Below are positions 19,249 through 28,607 of a stretch of 64,000 bases of DNA, one piece after another. The position numbers and the translations under genes are program-made. The notes under the pieces were generated by a model. The model was not told the origin of the DNA. It saw only the letters and a list, made by a program, of their open reading frames with translations, and made no database searches. The stretch's first letter is position 1; each line of letters opens with the position of its first letter. The DNA comes from Cenococcum geophilum 1.58 (Eukaryota > Ascomycota > Dothideomycetes > Gloniales > Gloniaceae): assembly GCA_001692895.1 (NCBI GenBank), contig KV748226.1, forward strand, positions 808,329 to 872,328, read 5' to 3'.

Positions 19249-19477
19249 TGTTAATTAGTAGTCCGTGCACTAATAAGTAAGTAAAGAATAAGGACTCTGT
19301 CTATTCAAACTATAAAGAAAAGAAGCTATTTATACATGAGGTAGGTCCAGGCAACTGAGTCAAAATAGGTAATAGAAACGGGTGGTGAGACCTAGGGTAC
19401 TAGGCATCAAAGACAGTAGTAAGACGGCAGTAAGACGGTAGTAAGACGGTGGTAAGAAAACCCGATCTGGATCGACA
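19249..19477 (-). repeat. 5' LTR of the copia element
   Basis: Begins TGTTAATTAG and ends GATCGACA. It is the partner of 14211-14439 and the promoter-bearing LTR in element orientation. The adjoining internal sequence, read on the minus strand (GTTATAAGCCCGGGTGAC), is where a tRNA-derived primer site is expected; I cannot assign the tRNA. Confidence 0.92.
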
Positions 19478-19482
19478 CATGG

Positions 19483-20011
19483 CGTTGTGGATATAATACG
19501 CATTTTAGAAGGCTTGTGATGAATTTAATCAAATCGGCGTTGTGCGGATATGGCATGTGATAAAGTTATTGCTTTTTATTGCTTTGCCTAAAATACCTAC
19601 AAAACTACACAGTGACCTTCCCCGCTCCTTCTACTCTTTATCTCACTTCATTATTACAGTAGAAGGCGGATTGGGTGTCGCTAGTTCTTTAATAAACTTT
19701 TTTAAAGACTGCGGGGTAGGCCTGTTGTGGCTTGTGTGGCTTTGCAGATACATGTACTAGGGAGGTACTGTACTAGGGAGGTACTGTACTAGGGAGGTAG
19801 TGTACTGAGGCAGAATCGGCGGCTTACCCCACTAATGGTCCCTGCCTACAGCACCCGAAACCGGCTTTCTTTGCAAACCCCCCACAGACAATACGAGCGA
19901 GGTCCTTTCGATTGTCGCTGCCTTTTTTGCAGCCATGCTGCCATTACGAGGATCGGTTTCGCCGCATCCACCGAAGGTGGATTCTGCCAGTAGCCAACGT
20001 TCCAGCGGCGT
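19483..20011. other. Spacer between copia fossil and inverted-repeat element
   Basis: No gene recognised. At 19749-19805 a 17-bp unit (GTACTAGGGAGGTACT core) is repeated three times in tandem. Short open frames on the plus strand at 19542 and 19935 have no recognisable domain; the second runs into the inverted repeat and is not credible. Confidence 0.45.
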
Positions 20012-20086
20012 GATACTGCAGTTTTCTTATCTTCTGCAAATTCGCTTGATAAGAGCCGCCCACATCACAATACGCATCAAAAAATA

Positions 20087-20795
20087 CACCCCCTATTGCC
20101 CTACTAAATATAGCTCTATATTTTATATATAGAGGCCTATTTTATAGCTCTATTCTAGGGCTATAAAATAAGCCCTTATTTATATAATTTAGGGCTGTTT
20201 TTGTGGAGTTATGGGGGGTGCTTATTGAGGAGAGNCGCGATCNCGCAGAGCCTCAATTCAAGTTTTACAGCTACCCCCTATAGCCCCACTAATACAGCTC
20301 TATATTTATAAACAGAGGCCTATTTTATAGCTCTATTCTAGAGCTATAAAACAAGCCCTTATTTATATAATTTAGAGCTATTTTAGTAGAGTTATAGGGG
20401 GTGCTTGTTTTGGGGCAAAGCGGTTCCTAGATTAGTCAGCGCAGAGCCTCAATTTAAGTTTTGTAGCTGTTGCAAAGCACCCCATATAATTCCACCAATA
20501 TTGGTCCAATTTATATAAATAATGGTTTATTTTATAGCCCTAAAATAGAGCTATAAAATAGGCATCTATTTATAAAATATAGAGCTGTATTAGTGGGGCT
20601 ATAGGGGGTAGCTATAAAACTTGAATTGAGGCTCTGCGCGATCGCGACTCTCCTCAATAAGCACCCCCCATAACTCCACAAAAACAGCCCTAAATTATAT
20701 AAATAAGGGCTTATTTTATAGCCCTAGAATAGAGCTATAAAATAGGCCTCTATATATAAAATATAGAGCTATATTTAGTAGGGCAATAGGGGGTG
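20087..20795. repeat. Array of four palindromic MITE-like units in two mirror-image pairs
   Basis: Units of about 135 bp lie at 20087-20221, 20270-20404, 20477-20612 and 20661-20795. Each starts near CACCCCCTAT and ends with its inverse (ATAGGGGGTG), with an inner palindrome around TTATAGCYCTA...TAGRGCTATAA. Spacers 1 and 3 are inverse copies of each other (GCAGAGCCTCAATTCAAG), so units 1-2 mirror units 3-4. The two N bases at 20235 and 20243 fall in spacer 1; the inverse spacer 3 reads GCGATCGCGACTCTCC, which suggests T and G respectively. Confidence 0.8.
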
Positions 20796-20804
20796 TATTT
20801 TTTA

Positions 20805-20924
20805 ATGTTACGTATCTATACATTGCTTGGCCGAAAAACCCTACAACTTAAGTATTCAACTAGATGTTTAACACGGTTAATAACATTATCGCTTGCAACT
20901 GCACTTAATAGGTCATTCTTTTTA
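20805..20924 (+). repeat. Split direct repeat A1
   Basis: ATGTTACGTATCTATACATT... to GGTCATTCTTTTTA; recurs as A2 at 25681-25800 with about a dozen differences, nearly all transitions. It marks the left end of the DIRS/PAT-like element. Confidence 0.85.
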
Positions 20925-22199
20925 TTATAGATTGCTTACGATTAGTGTTTCTAGTAGCAATAATTATTAAGGCCTATAACCAACTTTCTAGCCAATAGCA
21001 CCCGTTTAAAAACTCCTTACTTAACCGCCCTATTATCTACCTCCTTATCTACTATTATTCCATCTACCAAACATACTATAGTTTTATCTTTAAAAGAAGA
21101 AAGAGCTAGGAAATAAGATAAGAGGTCCTAATAACTCCATAACCTAGAGATCTAAAAGAAAGAGTAGGAGGAATAGGCACAGATCTAAAAGACGGAATAG
21201 GAAGAGGAGCTTTACTAGGCAAGGCTAGCCGCTCTAAAGCAGCCTGCTCCACTAAAGCACACCTCTACTACTAAGGCAGATAAACTAGGTAAGTCCTATA
21301 ACCTACTAGAAGGCTTAGGCACGCTTAAGCTTAACCTCCCTAGCCTAGCTAGAAGAGACCTCTATAATATATAGAAAGGATCCTTCCGCCTAGAGAACCT
21401 AGCCCGTTTATAGGTATACTCTAGCCGCCCAGACCTTTCTAATATGGCTACTATTAAAAACGGAAAGCTTATTTTAAAGAGACCTACTACTAGCCACAAG
21501 GTCTACGAAAATAAGGAGGTTTAGTTTACTGGATTTACGAACTACATAGTAATTATAAGCACTTTTTATATATGCCCAACTAACCTCTATATAAGAATAT
21601 TGCTCTAAATAAATAAGATCCGTGACTACTCTATAACCTATAACTGGACCTCTATCCTAGACCTTACGCTTAACTACTATAGGTATATTATAGATTGCAA
21701 TTAGCTTAAGCCTAGTAACTAGGACATACCTACCTAGTTTAAGGCCCTATACTGCCGGGCAGCTAATATAAAGGCATAGAGCTAGGGACTTAAAGTCTAT
21801 AGTATAGCATTAAAAAGATTACAAAAGAATACCTCCCCTTCCCTCCCCTTTAGTAAGCCCTATTACAGCTAGAATAACTAGCAGGCTTATAGAGAAGATC
21901 TATATTATTACCGCCACGCATGCTCTAAATACGATAAAAACTACCCATTAAAGTCGTGCCCTAGGTAGCTTACTACCGTAAATAGTTAAACCTAGGATTT
22001 AATAGTAAATAAAGACATCTTCCTAGGTTTAACTATCTAGATAAACCTGTTACAAACGCTAAGGCTCTAAGGCAGGCCTAATTTAGTACCTCTTTTTAAA
22101 ACTTATTTATAAACAACTTTCCTAGCTAACTTACTATTACCTTTAAGACCTCTCGCTTGGAGCACGCTCCTTTATAGGTACCCTAGAAATCTCCTAGCA

Positions 22200-23500
22200 A
22201 TTTTATAAAGTATTCTTACCTATAAGGCGGAGATAGGTCCCTTATTACCTATACTACCTAATATCTATAAAAACTACTTCTCCTTATACAATAACGAAGA
22301 CCTTATCTCTAAAAAGATCGTTACTAACCTAGCCCTAGGCCGTATATAGGCCACCAACTCTATAGTTACCTTACCCCTAGGCCTAGTGCCTAAGGCAAAT
22401 AGCGGCTTTTGCTATATTTACAACCTCTCTTTACCTAAGGGCTTCTTAGTTAATAACTCTATTAACCTAGCCTAGGCAGTACTACACTATACCTAAATAG
22501 AGACTATACTAGCACATATAATTATAGCTAGTAGAGGCTGCTACCTAGTTAAACAAGACATTAAAGATGCCTTCCAGATAGTGCCCGTTTTAGTGCAGTT
22601 ATATTACCTACTTAGCTTTATCTAGAAGGGAGTTATATATATTAAATGCTATCTGCTATTTAGCTTACAAATAGCCCTATTTCTTTTTAACTTATTCGCC
22701 GAAGGTCTCTACTAAATTCTAGTATAATAGATTAACTCCACTATTAAGCACTACCTTAATAATTTTATATTTATAGTTAAGTGTCTAACTATACTGCCAT
22801 TACTAAGGGAGGTATACCTCTTGGTTACTAACCAGCTAGGGGTACCCTAAAATAATACTAAGAATATTAAAGGTACGAAGGCTAAAGTATTAGGTTATAC
22901 TATTAACACTATAGCAATAGAGATAAAACTTTTACCAGCTAAGTAATAAAAAGCTATTAATTAGGTAACCGAAGCCCTCTAAAAAGGCTGGCTATTATTA
23001 CAGTAAGCTTAACAACTAGTGGGCCGCCTAGCATAATATACAAGAGTTATCCACCTTAGGCGCTCGTACTCTTACTCCTTATAGGACTTTATAACAAAAT
23101 GGCCTACTAGGTTATTAAGAAATATACCCTAATACCTCCCCTTAGAGCTAAAAGAAGACCTTAACCTCTGGCTTAAGGTTCTTATATTAAGTAATAGTAT
23201 ACTATTCTTTAATAATAAGGAGAGGCCGCAGTTTTACTTATTTACTAACGCCTTATTACTTAAAGGCTATAAAGGCTTTTACTTTAGCGGAGAGAATAGC
23301 CACTAGCCTAATTATACGGCTTCCCTACCCCAGGCCTAGGCCTTTAGCTATTATCCCCTACTAGACCAGGTAGATAACTATATTAACCTAAAAAAGATAT
23401 ATGCTATTACGAAGGCATTTAAAAAGTAGTTATTAGTCTAGCGGTATAGGTCTCTCTATATTTATATAGATAATATAGTTACTTATAGCAGCATCTAGAA
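22200..23500 (+). pseudogene. DIRS reverse transcriptase and RNase H region (fossil)
   Basis: Around 22550-22790 the plus strand reads KQDIKDAFQIVPV, LFLFNLFAEGLY and YLNNFIFIV, matching the conserved RT blocks of DIRS-type elements; the last corresponds to the YxDD catalytic box. Downstream, up to the solo LTR at 23505, lies the expected RNase H segment. It is broken in many places and cannot encode a working enzyme. Confidence 0.75.
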
Positions 23501-23504
23501 TAAT

Positions 23505-23678
23505 TGTTGGAATGTATATCACGTAGTCGCGTGTCTCTGATTAGTCACCCTTACGGTGACTTATCAGCCCCCTATTTAGGCACCGCGATCCTTACGATCC
23601 TTTGCTTTCGACACCTATTAGACAAGAATCAATTCAACAGTTAATAGGCCAATCAAGTGCACTTGGGTGATACCGACA
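23505..23678. mobile_element. Solo LTR inserted into the DIRS element
   Basis: Starts TGTTGGAATG, ends ATACCGACA, 174 bp, flanked by the perfect 5-bp duplication ATAAT (23500-23504, 23679-23683). It sits between the RNase H and recombinase regions, so it arrived after the DIRS element. A core of about 40 bp (CAGCCCCCTATTTAGGCACC then GCGATCCTTACGATCC) is shared, in inverse, with the LTRs of the small element at 60663-62557. The two LTR types are therefore relatives. Confidence 0.88.
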
Positions 23679-23844
23679 ATAATATTATAAAAGGTTTTGG
23701 AAACTAATTACTCCGAGAGATACTTATATCCTTAATAATAAATAATATTACTATAATAACTATATAGGTCTCTAGCGCCAATAATAGGCTTACTAATACT
23801 CTCTCGCGATTTAACTATAAGAAATTATTATTACTATACCCTAA

Positions 23845-23947
23845 ATAGCAAACGAATAACGGCTTCTTACTAAATAAATAACGGCTTTTTACTAAATAAA
23901 GGACAGCTTCTTACCGGATAAATAAAGGCTTCTTACTAGAAAAATAA
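23845..23947 (+). repeat. Short tandem repeat (four units of about 24 bp)
   Basis: The unit AATAACGGCTTCTTACTAAAT repeats four times with changes, inside the DIRS element just after the solo LTR. The following bases to about 24032 contain several N, so this part of the assembly is uncertain. Confidence 0.7.
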
Positions 23948-24079
23948 TATCTCTNCTCTANNTAGCTGCTAANTCTTATANTTAACCNAGAGTTNTTTAA
24001 TTAACCCCCCCNAACCTTCTAGAGTAAGATTNGTGGGTTTTATTACTTTTTACTACTTATATAGCATAGCTTAGCAGCC

Positions 24080-24960
24080 AATATAAGGAAAGGCTACTCC
24101 TCCGCTATTAAGAGCTGGGAGGCCTTCTTAGCCCTAAATAGTTTATTACCGTATCCGGCTAAAAGGATAAACTTAGGAAAATAGATTGCCTAATAAGCGT
24201 TCGGTACAGCCGCCCCTCTAATAGGTAGGATTAAGCTAAAAACCCTCTCTAACTATATCTCCGTAATTTAATCTCATTATATAGACCTAAGTTACTTAAT
24301 TACTACCTTTAAAAACTATACTATTAAAAAGGCCCTAGCGGGGGCTATATTACTATTCCCATCTACTAAAAAGACTAAACTACCGATTATAAAGGATATC
24401 TTAGATAAAATTATTACCTCTAGACCCTATAAGGCGGATATAAACGTAGACGCGGTATTTATAATAGCGTTTACGGGTTTCCTATGTATAGGAGAGATTA
24501 TATACCTAAATAGGAAAGCTAAGGACTTTAGCACTACAAGGGCCCTCTATAATAATATTAGAATCGCCCCTAATAGCTATTTAATAGTCTTCTACCTAAA
24601 ACAGAGTAAGATAGATAAAACCTATAGTAGCGTTAATATCTAGATCGCTACTATACTAGGAGATTGTCTATACCCCATAGCTATAATAATACGGTTATTT
24701 AACTGTAACCCCTAGCCTCTATTAAATCTATTATTTAGCGTTAATAATAAAGCATTTTCGGCGCTAGTAGTGCGTAAGATTCTATTAACCCGCTTAGCTG
24801 CCGGCAGTATTCTACCTAATAACTACTCTAACTACTCCTTCTATAGGGGTGTAGCGCAGTATATATATAATTATGGCTTTATAAAGTTATAAATGGCGTA
24901 GTTAGGTTAATGGACATTAGATACAGTAAAACTTTACTATAATACCTTAGAAACTAAACA
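24080..24960 (+). pseudogene. Tyrosine recombinase region of the DIRS-like element (fossil)
   Basis: Readable blocks include AFTGFLCIGEIIYLNR (24465-24510), a segment around YLKQSKIDKT that resembles the LPxSKTD block, and SNYSFYRGVAQYIYNYGF near 24830-24880. The last matches the HSFRRGAAQ box that carries the catalytic His and Arg in fungal DIRS-type tyrosine recombinases. This domain replaces the DDE integrase of LTR elements and explains the absence of a target duplication. It is broken and inactive. Confidence 0.8.
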
Positions 24961-25077
24961 ACTTTAATTAAACTCAAATTTTTAGTAGAGTATGCCTATA
25001 CTAGCTAGGGAAGCCTAAAATAGGGACTCTATACTTTCTATTACGGGACTACCCTATAATACCTTACACACGCTACC

Positions 25078-25352
25078 TGCCGCATTTTGCTATAATCTGC
25101 CATATTCTGCTATACTCTGCCTACTACCGCAAGATTATCCTATATTCGCAATACCCGCAATATTAGCAATATCCGTAACCTCTGTTAAGTTCTGTTAAGT
25201 CTACTAAATTCTGCTAAACTCTGCCAAATTCTGCTAAGTCTGCCAAATTCTGCTAAGTCTACTGAATTCTGCTAAGTCTACCAAATTCTATAAAATTCTG
25301 CTAAATCTGCTAAATTCTGCCAAATTCGGCCAAGTCTGCTAAATTCTACTAG
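25078..25352 (+). repeat. Degenerate tandem repeat (TCTGCYAAAT-type)
   Basis: ATTCTGCTAAGTCTGCCAA-like units of 8-17 bp repeat some twenty times between the recombinase region and B1 of the DIRS element. A short CCGCAATATTAGCAATATCC stretch is included at 25158-25177. Confidence 0.75.
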
Positions 25353-25523
25353 GACTATAGTAATATGTTAACCAAGCGACCAAGTTAATAATATATACCC
25401 ATTCTCCTTATTCCCTTACCTTCTTTCCTTATATAATATCTTAATTTTATTATATAGTTTATACTACGGAAATCGCTCCTATTTTAACTTAATTCTTTAT
25501 AGGTAGCAGGCGCTTTGCTAGTA

Positions 25524-26041
25524 GGTACTGGGTAGGATTTAGGCCAGATCTCCAAAGTTTAGGCCTAAAAAGCCTTATAAACGCTAGAATATCGCCTAGA
25601 TCCCGCCCTATAGGCCTACACCCCCTATAATCGATATATTTAAAATGGACTATAACCTATTCGTGCCATGCGAGAGATAGATGTCACGTATCTATACATT
25701 GCTTAGCCAAAAAACCCTATAACTTAAGTATTCAACCAGATATTCAATACAGTTAATAACATTATCGCTTGCAACTGCACTCAATAGGTCGTTCTTTTTA
25801 CCTACCTACCCCCCTTATAATATATATTAGATTAGTTACTTGCAGTCCTGTTTAGGTCTAGCGGCGGGCTATCCCATTAGGGGCACCGGGTAGGATTCAG
25901 GCCAGATCTCCGAAGTTTAGGCCTAAAAAGCCTTATAAACGCTAGGATATCGCCTGGATCCCGCCCTATAGGCCTGCACCCCCCACAATCGATATATTTG
26001 AAATGGACTATGACCTGTTCGTGCCGTGCGAGAGATAGATG
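25524..26041 (+). repeat. DIRS right end: split direct repeats B1-A2-B2
   Basis: B1 (25524-25683) and B2 (25882-26041) both run from GGYACYGGGTAGGATT to GCGAGAGATAGATG. Between them A2 (25681-25800) repeats the left end A1. B1 is more AT-rich than B2; the differences are transitions (GATCCCGC is retained in both), as RIP would make. In PAT-like elements this arrangement lets a circular DNA copy be made from a linear transcript. Confidence 0.85.
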
Positions 26042-26189
26042 CGTATTATAATGTGGGCGGCTCTTATCAAGCGAATTTGCAGAAGATAAGAAAACTGTAG
26101 TATCTGCGGTAGGCAGCGATGCCTTACACATTCACGACACAACCGCAATCAAGGAAGACCACGATGTTAAGACAACAACAGTGACGCCC

Positions 26190-28607
26190 ATGATTAAAGT
26201 CGACCTATACTTGCTCAGAAGGTGGGGATATGACGATCGCAAACATTGCAGCCATTGTAGCACTGACACAACTGTCACTGAAATGGGTGCAACACGCTAC
26301 AAGTGCTTGCGTTGCACTGATTTTTGGCTTTGTCATGTCTGCTTCACATCGGCAGAGTTCATTCATCCCGATCACCAATTTCAGATCATAAACCTACATG
26401 CTCGGTTCCCACTACTGTTGACCACTCCGGACTCAGCCGCAGACGCCTACGGATTGAAGTTGTTGGATAAAGGACGCAGAGAATTTGTGATGCTACCCAG
26501 AAATTGTTGTCCAACTTGTCTTAACCACCGGCCGGGCGAGATACGTCACCGACAAGCGATTAACAAGGACTTTCCGTACTCAGATGACGCTGAGTGGAAA
26601 TCCACCCACGAAATCCATGGAAGTGATTTGGAAAGGTCGGTATAAAGAGGTTGCGATTTGTGTTCGATTGTCTTGTGCGGCTTGACGAAAGTTGCTCCGA
26701 GGATGATCGCCGACGACCGGGAGATGGGTCTAATTATTTCGGCCAACGAAATCAGTATCTTTGATTGTGCATTTGTAGCCGGCAGCGAGGGACGCAACAA
26801 AGGACGTTACTCCATCCGCGGTCGCCCAGGATATAGCCAGCGCTGGCCTACTCTAAAACTTGCTGATGCTATAAGTCATTCACTGGGCAGCGATATATGT
26901 TTCGCAAAGATCAGATCCTGGATTAGTCTCTGCGAGCAGGAGCATGAGCATAGTGATTGTTTGAAGCCAGCAAGAAGCAGACTACCTGACAGGGTCATAG
27001 CACTCGACACGACGTTTGGTATGATATCTTTAAGACTTCTCATTACCAAGGGAGAGCCTGACCGATATATTGCCCTAAGCCATCGCTGGGGTTCCTCTCC
27101 ATGTATAACGACCACGTCCGAGAACTTGGCCACAATGTGCGAAAACATTGATTATACCAACTTGCCGCAAACCTTTGCCGATGCAGTAGTTTGCGCCAAG
27201 AATCTCGGGATCAAATATCTCTGGATAGACTCTATATGCGTTGTCCAGGATGACATACTAGACTGGCAGAGGCAGTCCGCCAAGATGGAGTCGTATTACT
27301 CTGGGGCTTTTGTCGTGATCGCAGCAGCTTCCGCTGATAGCGGCAATGCTGGTTTCCTCAAAGAGAGACCATCTGTCTACACAGGCATTCCGTTCGAGTC
27401 CGTACCTGATAGTGGGACTCACGACTTGGCTGTGCAGCGTATTATGCCTCACTGTGCAGATTCCCAGCTTACCGCCACGGTGGCTATGGAACGTGATTAT
27501 ATCGAGTCTCGGGCGTGGTGCATGCAGGAAACCATTCTTGCCCGGAGAGTCCTCTTCTTCCACCATAGCGAAATGCTCTGGCAGTGCCAGTCACTCACTG
27601 ATTGTGAGTGCGGCAGGAGCATGACGCGTGATGAGGAAGACCAGAGTTCCTCGGCTCGCCTTCAATCTTATGACGCCAGTCCAAGCATTCGAGAATTCCT
27701 TGGACCATGCAGTGGATTGCTAAGATATTTCGGCAAGCCGTTATCCACGCTCAACAGCGTCCACTTAGTATACGTGGAATGGAGACACGGTATCGTTCCG
27801 TTGTACACCTCCAAAGCCTTGACACATAGCGCCGACAGGCTTCCCGCATTGTCCGGCCTTGCTGCAAAGGTATGCCAATACCTTGAGTCTCAAAATCATG
27901 GAGATGAATATCTGGCTGGTATATGGCGGAGCGATCCCCTTGGTTTACTCTGGGCTGTGTCACGCGGCAGTGATCCTGAAAATGTATGGGAGCCCGATGA
28001 GTACCTGGGCCCCTCATTTTCCTGGGTATCGGTTGACCAGGAAGTCTGCTATAAGATTCCACCTGCGATGCAGTCGGCGCAGTATCCTCCTGTGTACGGT
28101 GACATAAAGTGCAGAATATTAGAAGCGCACGTTGTTGTCGATGGGATAAATCCTTTCGGAGCGGTAAAAGACGGTTTTATCAAAGTATCAGGGCTGGCTA
28201 GCGACATGATCATCCGCATCGGAACTTCGACAGAAGACAGATATTGGCTCGATTGCGGAGCTGGGGTTGACTATACGGATTTCTGGGTTGATACCCATCT
28301 TGGTGTGGTGAGGATACGTAAGAAAAAGGGCTTTACTTACTCCCTAAATCGTTTCGGCAAGGCCATCTTTGATGAACGCTACAGGGGTTGCACACCTCAG
28401 ATCCACGTTGATGGCCTCGTGGTCGCAAATCTGGATCCAGCACCTGACCAATACAAATATTCTGTTAATTACGCAATACTCGTCCTTGGCAAATCAGTGA
28501 AGCGACCAGGTACATACCAAAGACTTGGAATAGCCACGGTTGGGATTAGAAGCCATAGTCACCATTGGGTGGACAAGTTATCTCTCCGCGAGTTTACTAT
28601 TACCTAA
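26190..28607 (+). pseudogene. ZZ zinc finger + HET-domain protein, with one in-frame TAA
   Basis: From the ATG at 26190 the frame runs through a ZZ-type finger (HCSHC, YKCLRC, LCHVCF, HPDHQF; residues about 13-65), then a TAA at 26643-26645, and continues in the same frame to 28607 (805 codons besides the stop). Directly after the stop comes RGCDLCSIVLCGL, the GCxxC motif that precedes HET domains. The HET core follows: YIALSHRWG (27066), LPQTFADAVV, YLWIDSICVVQDD, then an AAASADSGNAGF block. HET proteins act in vegetative incompatibility and related cell-death responses; ZZ fingers bind protein tails or ubiquitin-like partners. TAA can derive from CAA by a CpA-to-TpA (RIP-type) change. No convincing intron removes it. 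Alternatives: two genes, a sequencing error, or read-through. The GTG at 26181 was not used as start. The remaining frame is intact over 650 codons, so inactivation is recent or incomplete. Confidence 0.8.

Follow-up and report, generated by a model that had tools for sequence, protein, structure and literature searches.

A Ngaro-like tyrosine-recombinase retrotransposon family in Cenococcum geophilum and its integration as read from many copies and empty sites

Introduction

A stretch of 64,000 nucleotides from Cenococcum geophilum 1.58 (contig KV748226.1, positions 808,329 to 872,328; the window hereafter) holds a mobile element lodged inside another repeat. The locus raises the question of what kind of element this is, where it begins and ends, and how it entered its target. 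The integration of tyrosine-recombinase retrotransposons has so far been understood chiefly through models. The genome studied here contains dozens of insertions. Many of these interrupt repeats of which empty copies are also present, and so form natural before-and-after pairs. The initial annotation described a PAT-type element integrated at an ATG without target duplication. Comparison with the other copies indicates that the element is very probably a defunct Ngaro-like tyrosine-recombinase retrotransposon, with a life cycle that would pass through a circle.

The Window Copy and Its Host Repeat

The window copy is mutated, about 5.2 kb long and ordered A1-ORFs-B1-A2-B2, with no target duplication seen. 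The element, its repeats and its host lie as follows.

20016-20805, strand undefined: left part of the host repeat, palindromic and TA-flanked, with the retrotransposon inserted in it (inverted repeats I1 and I5; other copies L087-L091)
26040-26100, strand undefined: right end of the host repeat (TA at 20014-20015 and 26101-26102)
20016-20307, minus strand: intact opposite arm of the host repeat, the empty-site control within the window (match to the joined flanks)
20806-26039, plus strand: whole retrotransposon, TG...GATAGA, 5,234 bp when the nested solo LTR is counted (ends common to 37 left and 39 right ends in the same genome)
20806-20924, plus strand: A1 repeat (repeat family D4, 91% identical to A2)
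23505-23678, plus strand: nested solo LTR, TGTTGG...CCGACA (5-bp duplication ATAAT at 23500-23504 and 23679-23683)
25181-25351, plus strand: tandem array of degenerate 10/19-bp units, located between the recombinase and B1
25524-25681, plus strand: B1 repeat (family D3, 92% identical to B2)
25682-25800, plus strand: A2 repeat (the B1/A2 junction GATAGA/TG is the right end fused to the left end)
25882-26039, plus strand: B2 repeat and right end (repeat comparison and ends of other copies)

The empty-site control noticed in the window is real. The inverted arm at 20012-20307 passes uninterrupted through the insertion point (...TGTATTTTTTG-ATG-CGTATTGTGATGTGG...) and agrees with the joined flanks, which match it at 94% over 396 bp; five unoccupied copies of the host repeat elsewhere (L087-L091) can also be aligned across the junction. 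Together these matches exclude chance. The ends had been given as 20805 and 26041, exact to the base. Since the target by chance carried ATG at this point, the window alone leaves an uncertainty of 3 bases in the ends, and the other copies give 20806 and 26039. Removal of 20805-26041 takes out both ATGs, and the join that had been described is restored only when 20805-26038 or 20806-26039 is removed. The first base of A1 (20806) was fixed through copies whose target base is not A.

The split repeats reported earlier are present. Twenty other loci were fetched whole, and 14 of them repeat the full A1-ORFs-B1-A2-B2 order, with an interruption in B1 of L013. Of the remaining six, the A1 start is absent from L009 and A2-B2 from L010 and L022, and L014, L017 and L025 extend beyond the stretch fetched. 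The B1/A2 junction reads GATAGA/TG in 6 and GATAGA/TA in 10 of 16 loci. The nested solo LTR is missing in all 18 other loci that align on both its sides.

Copies, Ends and Target Preference

The 177-Mb genome holds at least 38 copies, counted from 40 matches (40 of 62 candidates scored) less the second piece of one copy and a 109-bp fragment. L032, both of whose flanks match L020, and L068, whose right flank matches L009, were dropped before the counts; these pairs are taken for duplicated segments. As L009, L036 and L039 are without the A1 start and L048 is without the right end, the comparison covered 37 left and 39 right ends. Only one pair (L020/L032) shares its left flank among 38 copies, and two pairs (L020/L032 and L009/L068) share the right flank among 41. 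The flanks otherwise differ, and a search for family sequence running past the ends was negative.

Positions +2 and +3 of the left end are TG or its RIP product TA in 37/37 copies, and the right end is GATAG followed by A in 38/39. Integration at ATG is contradicted by the right boundary, which reads ATG in 4 of 39 copies, or in 19 of 39 when all ATA are taken for RIP-changed ATG; elsewhere it reads ACC, ACT, ATT, ACA, ATC, AGG and so on. The preferred target is instead TAWA^Y, with TAWA found at 23 of 37 sites against a background of 4.3% and A at target position +1 in 33 of 37. A base missing at the right end of L018 offsets its right flank by one position in this tabulation. The proposed lack of target duplication was borne out: among the 36 insertions that retain both ends, 24 are without any flush direct repeat, and the longest such repeat, 4 nt, occurs once.

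Empty sites were read for nine insertions, namely the window copy, L019 (in L014), L013, L015, L018, L030, L040, L043 and L045. Eight join without gain or loss of a base, and one, L018, lacks a single base at its right end. A dedicated search found empty sites for 7 of 12 insertions; for L016, L023, L025, L037 and L047 there was none among the 40 scored candidates per search (one 81% match for L025, spanning only 14 bases across the junction, was left out). The words at the right boundary already stood in the targets, ACC for L040, ATT for L015 and L043, and ACT for L045, so that ATG is not the target word.

In L013 (target C) and L030 (target T), both with empty sites, the target base before the cut is not A. 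This base is kept on the left and the element's A is seen on the right, and both ends place the crossover at the identical bond. The two other copies with a mismatch at +1, L016 and L046, without empty sites, resolve alike, and a single crossover position accounts for 37/37 left ends. The sequences thus show a crossover between target bases +1 and +2 at both ends.

Coding Regions

The coding regions are heavily damaged. They were placed by motif, partly by transfer from other copies.

22208-22849, plus strand: putative reverse transcriptase region, broken by stop codons (motifs KADGGF..YDLS, DIKDAF, LPFGL and YLN[DN]F; coordinates transferred from L015 and L018)
23370-23495, plus strand: putative RNase H region, motif YTDN (coordinates transferred; L015 piece)
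24065-24960, plus strand: putative tyrosine recombinase region, broken by stop codons (one frame of motifs; start transferred from L015)

Reverse transcriptase and recombinase motifs occur in most copies. YLNNF can be read directly in the window copy at 22752-22766, and YLN[DN]F is present in 20 of 21 loci, [LI]PF[GS]L in 10 of 21 and YTDN in 4 of 21; the window copy did not yield the YTDN pattern. The recombinase of the window shows the R motif at 24476 with R changed to C, SFxRG at 24830 in the place of HxxR with H changed to Y, and LGxW...KLYY with its end at 24940. The same in-frame order (place of HxxR, LGxW, K[LF]YY) is found in 18 of 21 loci, the other three being without this region in the stretch fetched. 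Of these 18, only three (L013, L019 and L020) keep HxxR intact, and GFLRI.EI is intact in four loci.

Profile searches gave no significant result. PF00589 had no match over the whole genome, probably as a result of RIP damage; the same profile matches in 14/14 control genomes. On stop-free pieces PF00589 matched 0/10 and 0/13, and Pfam as a whole returned no significant domain in sets of 10, 13 and 11 pieces, with RVT_1 below the cut-off in 3 of 11 (best E 0.02). Searches of PDB gave one irrelevant match with the recombinase profile and two weak reverse transcriptase chains (E 0.23 and 0.4) with the reverse transcriptase profile. Fold prediction for the recombinase (13 pieces) was unsuccessful, with a pLDDT of 35. 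Both proteins are assigned by motif. In L015 about 130-140 codons separate YTDN from the recombinase N-terminus; judged by spacing in this one copy, that leaves no room for a methyltransferase next to the remainder of RNase H, so the element probably encodes none.

RIP and the 357-bp Minis

The window copy was mutated by RIP after its insertion in the host repeat and was also hit by the solo LTR. Across the family, 16 A2-B2 blocks differ from the short copy L029 by 461 C>T/G>A, 3 T>C and 2 transversions. L029 is one of three 357-bp A-B (A2-B2) minis in the genome with ends identical to those of the full element. It is identical to a second mini, L030, apart from one N, and the flanks of the two differ. 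Both carry at most one RIP-type change, as against 5-43 C>T/G>A in the same block of 16 full copies. There are also two A1-ORFs-B copies. Recombination between A1 and A2 before RIP can also yield minis.

Integration and Proposed Life Cycle

Ends, B1/A2 fusion, target preference, absence of target duplication and crossover position can all be read off the aligned copies. The proposed cycle is as follows. RNA of the element would be copied by its own reverse transcriptase. The ends A1 and B2 would then meet on the internal B1-A2 segment, where the exact fusion GATAGA/TGTCACG is found, and the resulting circle would be recombined into a TAWA^Y site by the tyrosine recombinase. A circle with two B-A junctions might be split by the recombinase before integration, giving A2-B2 minis and A1-ORFs-B copies.

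The single crossover position hints at a one-strand exchange: all 37 left ends resolve at one bond, and a mixed outcome would be expected if both strands were exchanged across an overlap with a mismatch. A rather improbable scheme builds on this. One target strand would be exchanged with a circle, possibly single-stranded, and the reaction finished by replication, as in the insertion of integron cassettes; the recombinase would also split the circle at two B-A junctions, and the resulting 357-bp minis would insert alone and escape RIP. An ordinary two-strand exchange with a very short overlap of 0-1 bp, which would call for no special assumption about the strands, has about an even chance of being correct. 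A 1-bp overlap would suit nearly every insertion, A being the base at +1 in 33 of 37 targets, but known tyrosine recombinases use an overlap of about 5-8 bp, and the four copies mismatched at +1 (L013, L030, L016 and L046) all resolve alike, which would happen by chance once in 16 if both outcomes were even. As to the minis, it is conceivable, though somewhat doubtful, that they are solo repeats left by homologous recombination of A1 with A2 in full insertions, as the account of the isolated AB repeats of Cafeteria proposes (PMC8547959). The product would have the same structure, and no column separates A1 from A2 in half or more of the copies (three, all C/T, separate B1 from B2 at the threshold used). 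Against this, L029 and L030 lie at different sites, are identical bar one N and are nearly free of RIP, so that the deletion would have to precede RIP in both. From this near-identity and near absence of RIP, L029 and L030 were probably inserted directly. If minis insert alone, their shortness would let them escape RIP, and the ends of the element would be preserved in the genome almost without mutation.

Overall, these insertions pin the crossover to a single bond, establish which targets are preferred and open the choice between one- and two-strand exchange to testing. With the minis, nearly free of RIP, direct A-B insertion can in principle be distinguished from the formation of solo repeats.

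Classification and Comparison with Known Systems

A tyrosine-recombinase retrotransposon with split direct repeats, as first suggested, is supported, but the PAT label is not. PAT is set apart by a methyltransferase domain, as described in PMC4157794, and none would fit in the L015 spacing; by motifs and spacing Ngaro appears the better name. It is very unlikely that the family is a PAT-type element integrating at an ATG common to circle and target. The window copy alone fits that view, and A-B-A-B repeats also occur in PAT in the same account; it is opposed by the missing space for a methyltransferase, by the boundary counts and by the words that the empty sites of L040, L015, L043 and L045 place in the target. 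Still less probable is a Crypton-like DNA transposon or an LTR retrotransposon. The lack of a significant Pfam domain would agree with either, but reverse transcriptase motifs (a Crypton has a recombinase without reverse transcriptase) and the recombinase motif order stand in one element, with split direct repeats and no target duplication. The terminal repeats are direct, not inverted as in DIRS1-like elements, which also have internal complementary regions.

A complete Ngaro family is already known in an ascomycete, Zymoseptoria tritici, according to PMC4502367. Literature searches, whose scope did not extend to Repbase, found no report of the present family.

The fungal Ngaro elements presented by Muszewska (2013, PMC3783388) and in PMC4502367 resemble the window element in their A-pol-B-A-B order; their reverse transcriptase, RNase H and tyrosine recombinase have putative counterparts here, by motif, and the methyltransferase that they lack is probably absent here too. 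Unlike what those accounts set out, base-exact ends, a target preference and a crossover position are drawn here from many copies and empty sites, and the copies read here are RIP-mutated. PAT, as outlined in PMC4157794, shares the split direct repeats A1-B1-A2-B2. DIRS1-like elements, in the description of PMC3266345, share a circle intermediate (here a predicted one), the lack of target duplication and a short word common to ends and target, but differ in their inverted repeats and methyltransferase; the model given there has an identical 3-bp target word, whereas the present family prefers TA.A and has variable bases to the right of the cut. The Ngaro elements of Cafeteria burkhardae, as portrayed in PMC8547959, have the same A1-ORFs-B1A2B2 order and isolated AB repeats, and some of their insertions have likewise landed in terminal inverted repeats belonging to another mobile element. 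Their AB repeats are explained there by recombination of the solo-LTR kind, whereas the two identical, nearly RIP-free minis in C. geophilum favour direct insertion.

Structure and Genomic Distribution of the Element

The Ngaro-like element in the window has the split repeat order A1, ORF region, B1, A2, B2 described in the initial annotation and lies within a second, palindromic repeat, here called the host repeat.

Features of the element and its host repeat
20016-20805 plus 26040-26100: host repeat, palindromic, TA on both sides; element in its right arm
20806-26039, + strand: element, 5.2 kb
20806-20924, + strand: direct repeat A1
23505-23678: solo LTR TGTTGG...CCGACA, 174 bp, 5-bp duplication ATAAT, between RNase H and recombinase regions
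25181-25351: degenerate tandem array (TCTGCTAAAT), recombinase on its left and B1 on its right
25524-25681, + strand: direct repeat B1
25682-25800, + strand: direct repeat A2
25882-26039, + strand: direct repeat B2

The host repeat (~860 bp, CTGCAG-like ends, internal 117-bp repeats in both orientations), which resembles a mariner-type non-autonomous element, has at least 266 matches in the genome (40 of 231 candidates scored). The five copies compared (L087-L091) are uninterrupted and alignable through the insertion point. The solo LTR, possibly Copia-like, is missing from all 18 other loci alignable on both its sides and shows little effect of RIP by base ratios. Short tandem arrays of 11-bp and 16-bp units lie left of the host repeat at 19410-19457 and 19753-19806, and a HET-domain (heterokaryon incompatibility) gene adjoins the insertion at 26658-28607 (PF06985, E 5e-25).

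A 601-bp internal query gave 40 matches, with 40 of 62 candidates scored. Two of these are not separate copies, one being a 109-bp fragment and the other a second piece of a copy already matched, so the element occupies 38 or more sites of the 177.2-Mb genome, including the window. Twenty loci were taken whole, and the ends of further loci were taken separately. Loci L020 and L032/L049 lie ~24 kb apart on contig C26, L020 and L032 having both flanks in common, and L009 and L068 have a common right flank; both pairs are probably segmental duplications carrying the element.

Coding Evidence and Classification

The longest forward-strand stop-free stretch in 21 loci is 237 codons (L014, L017, and L025 covered in part only). 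Stop-free pieces retain the RT motifs KADGGF, DIKDAF, and LPFGL, with YLN[DN]F in 20 of the 21 loci. One frame holds the recombinase R motif, the place of HxxR (SFxRG), LGxW, and K[LF]YY. Motifs of these two kinds characterize RT and tyrosine recombinases, respectively. The R motif was found in 17/21 loci by a RIP-tolerant pattern and is intact in 4, while the place of HxxR, LGxW, and K[LF]YY was found in 18/21 loci by listing and 17/21 by a stricter pattern, HxxR being intact in only 3. HxxR and Tyr are named for Ngaro in PMC8547959. Profile searches for the recombinase in the genome, and for RT and recombinase in stop-free pieces and PDB, gave no significant match, and fold prediction of the recombinase gave no usable structure (pLDDT 35). 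The element had been called PAT-type. In L015, ~130-140 codons separate the RNase H motif from the recombinase start, a spacing too short for a methyltransferase, and the element is therefore assigned to Ngaro.

RIP and Element Ends

TpA/ApT is 1.75 in the element vs. 0.71 in the neighboring HET gene, and (CpA+TpG)/(ApC+GpT) is 0.52 vs. 1.31. Relative to the 357-bp A-B unit L029, C>T/G>A changes number 461 across the A2-B2 blocks of 16 copies, with 5-43 per copy; in 15 of these copies most lie in CpA/TpG. Together the blocks show just 3 T>C changes and 2 transversions. The CpA-type RIP and the HET gene indicate that the host is probably a filamentous ascomycete.

The left ends examined (n = 37; 20 whole loci including the window, 14 end-only, 3 short units) all start with TG (23) or its RIP product TA (14). 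The preceding base is variable (A 33, T 2, C 1, G 1). At right ends GATAG is followed by A in 38/39 and by T in one (L018), and the base beyond varies (T 22, C 11, A 2, G 1; 36 insertions with both ends). The B1-A2 junction reads GATAGA|TG in 6 and GATAGA|TA in 10 of 16 loci, and thus represents a right end fused to a left end with no bases between.

Empty Sites and Position of the Crossover

The proposal that the window holds its own empty-site control was borne out, as the left arm, in inverse, shows the site without the element and aligns with the joined flanks over 396 bp at 94%. Empty sites were read for nine insertions: the window (own arm plus L087-L091), L019 (inside L014), L013 and L030 (four sequences each), L040 and L043 (three each), L045 (two), and L015 and L018 (one each). 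In 8 of the 9, joining the flanks gives a junction of the same length as in the empty site, with 0 bases gained or lost, which upholds integration with no target duplication; in L018 one A is missing on the occupied side. Targets L013 (C) and L030 (T) are informative where most have A: the target's base is kept at the left end and the element's A stands at the right. L016 (G) and L046 (T), known from occupied sites alone, show the same left pattern. Where the target has C just beyond the cut, as in L040 and L045, the next base is the element's on the left and the target's on the right. Read from these end bases and C targets, the crossover is between +1, the base just before the element's TG, and +2, the next base, at both ends.

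Two-strand exchange over a mismatched overlap would be expected to give mixed insertions, as the strand descendants would resolve at different positions. None of the 37 left ends departs from the single crossover position, which suggests an overlap of 0-1 bp or inheritance of only one strand's crossover.

Target Preference

TAWA precedes the cut at 23/37 sites vs. 581/13,637 flank positions (4.3%; binomial p ~1e-22), with T at -3 in 31/37 and A at -2 in 29/37; a pyrimidine follows in 33/36. The circle junction is TAGA|TG, which the target resembles at TA.A|T. Integration at ATG, as initially annotated, is not required: right-boundary trinucleotides (n = 39) are ATA 15, ACT 6, ATT 4, ATG 4, ACA 3, plus seven further trinucleotides seen in one copy each. 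Some of the ATA will be ATG changed by RIP.

Short and Partial Copies

Among at least 39 places with long A2-B2 matches (40 of 78 candidates scored), three lack an adjacent B1. These units (L029, L030, L031) are 357 bp each, with ends as in full copies; L010 and L022 have A1-ORFs-B and lack the second A-B. The recombinase could produce both forms by splitting a circle with two B-A junctions. Recombination between direct repeats can also yield both. L029 and L030 differ by one N only and have different flanks, and L029 has at most one RIP-type change, at position 43, where L031 and 3/16 full copies have C; L031 has 7 further or ambiguous differences from L029, some of RIP type. Because two of the units are almost RIP-free, direct insertion is considered the likelier origin of the short units. 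In Neurospora, RIP has a length threshold of ~400 bp, and the short units were perhaps largely spared as below the length that RIP detects.

Comparison with Known Systems

One-strand exchange that is resolved by replication has been described before, for integron integrases (PMC4792948). Muszewska 2013 (PMC3783388) gives one truncated element as the sole ascomycete Ngaro found. A complete family has later been reported in Zymoseptoria tritici (PMC4502367), and further ascomycetes have Ngaro entries in annotation tables (PMC9281073, PMC7601665). Ngaro elements are already known in ascomycetes, and the value of the present copies is their base-exact record of integration.
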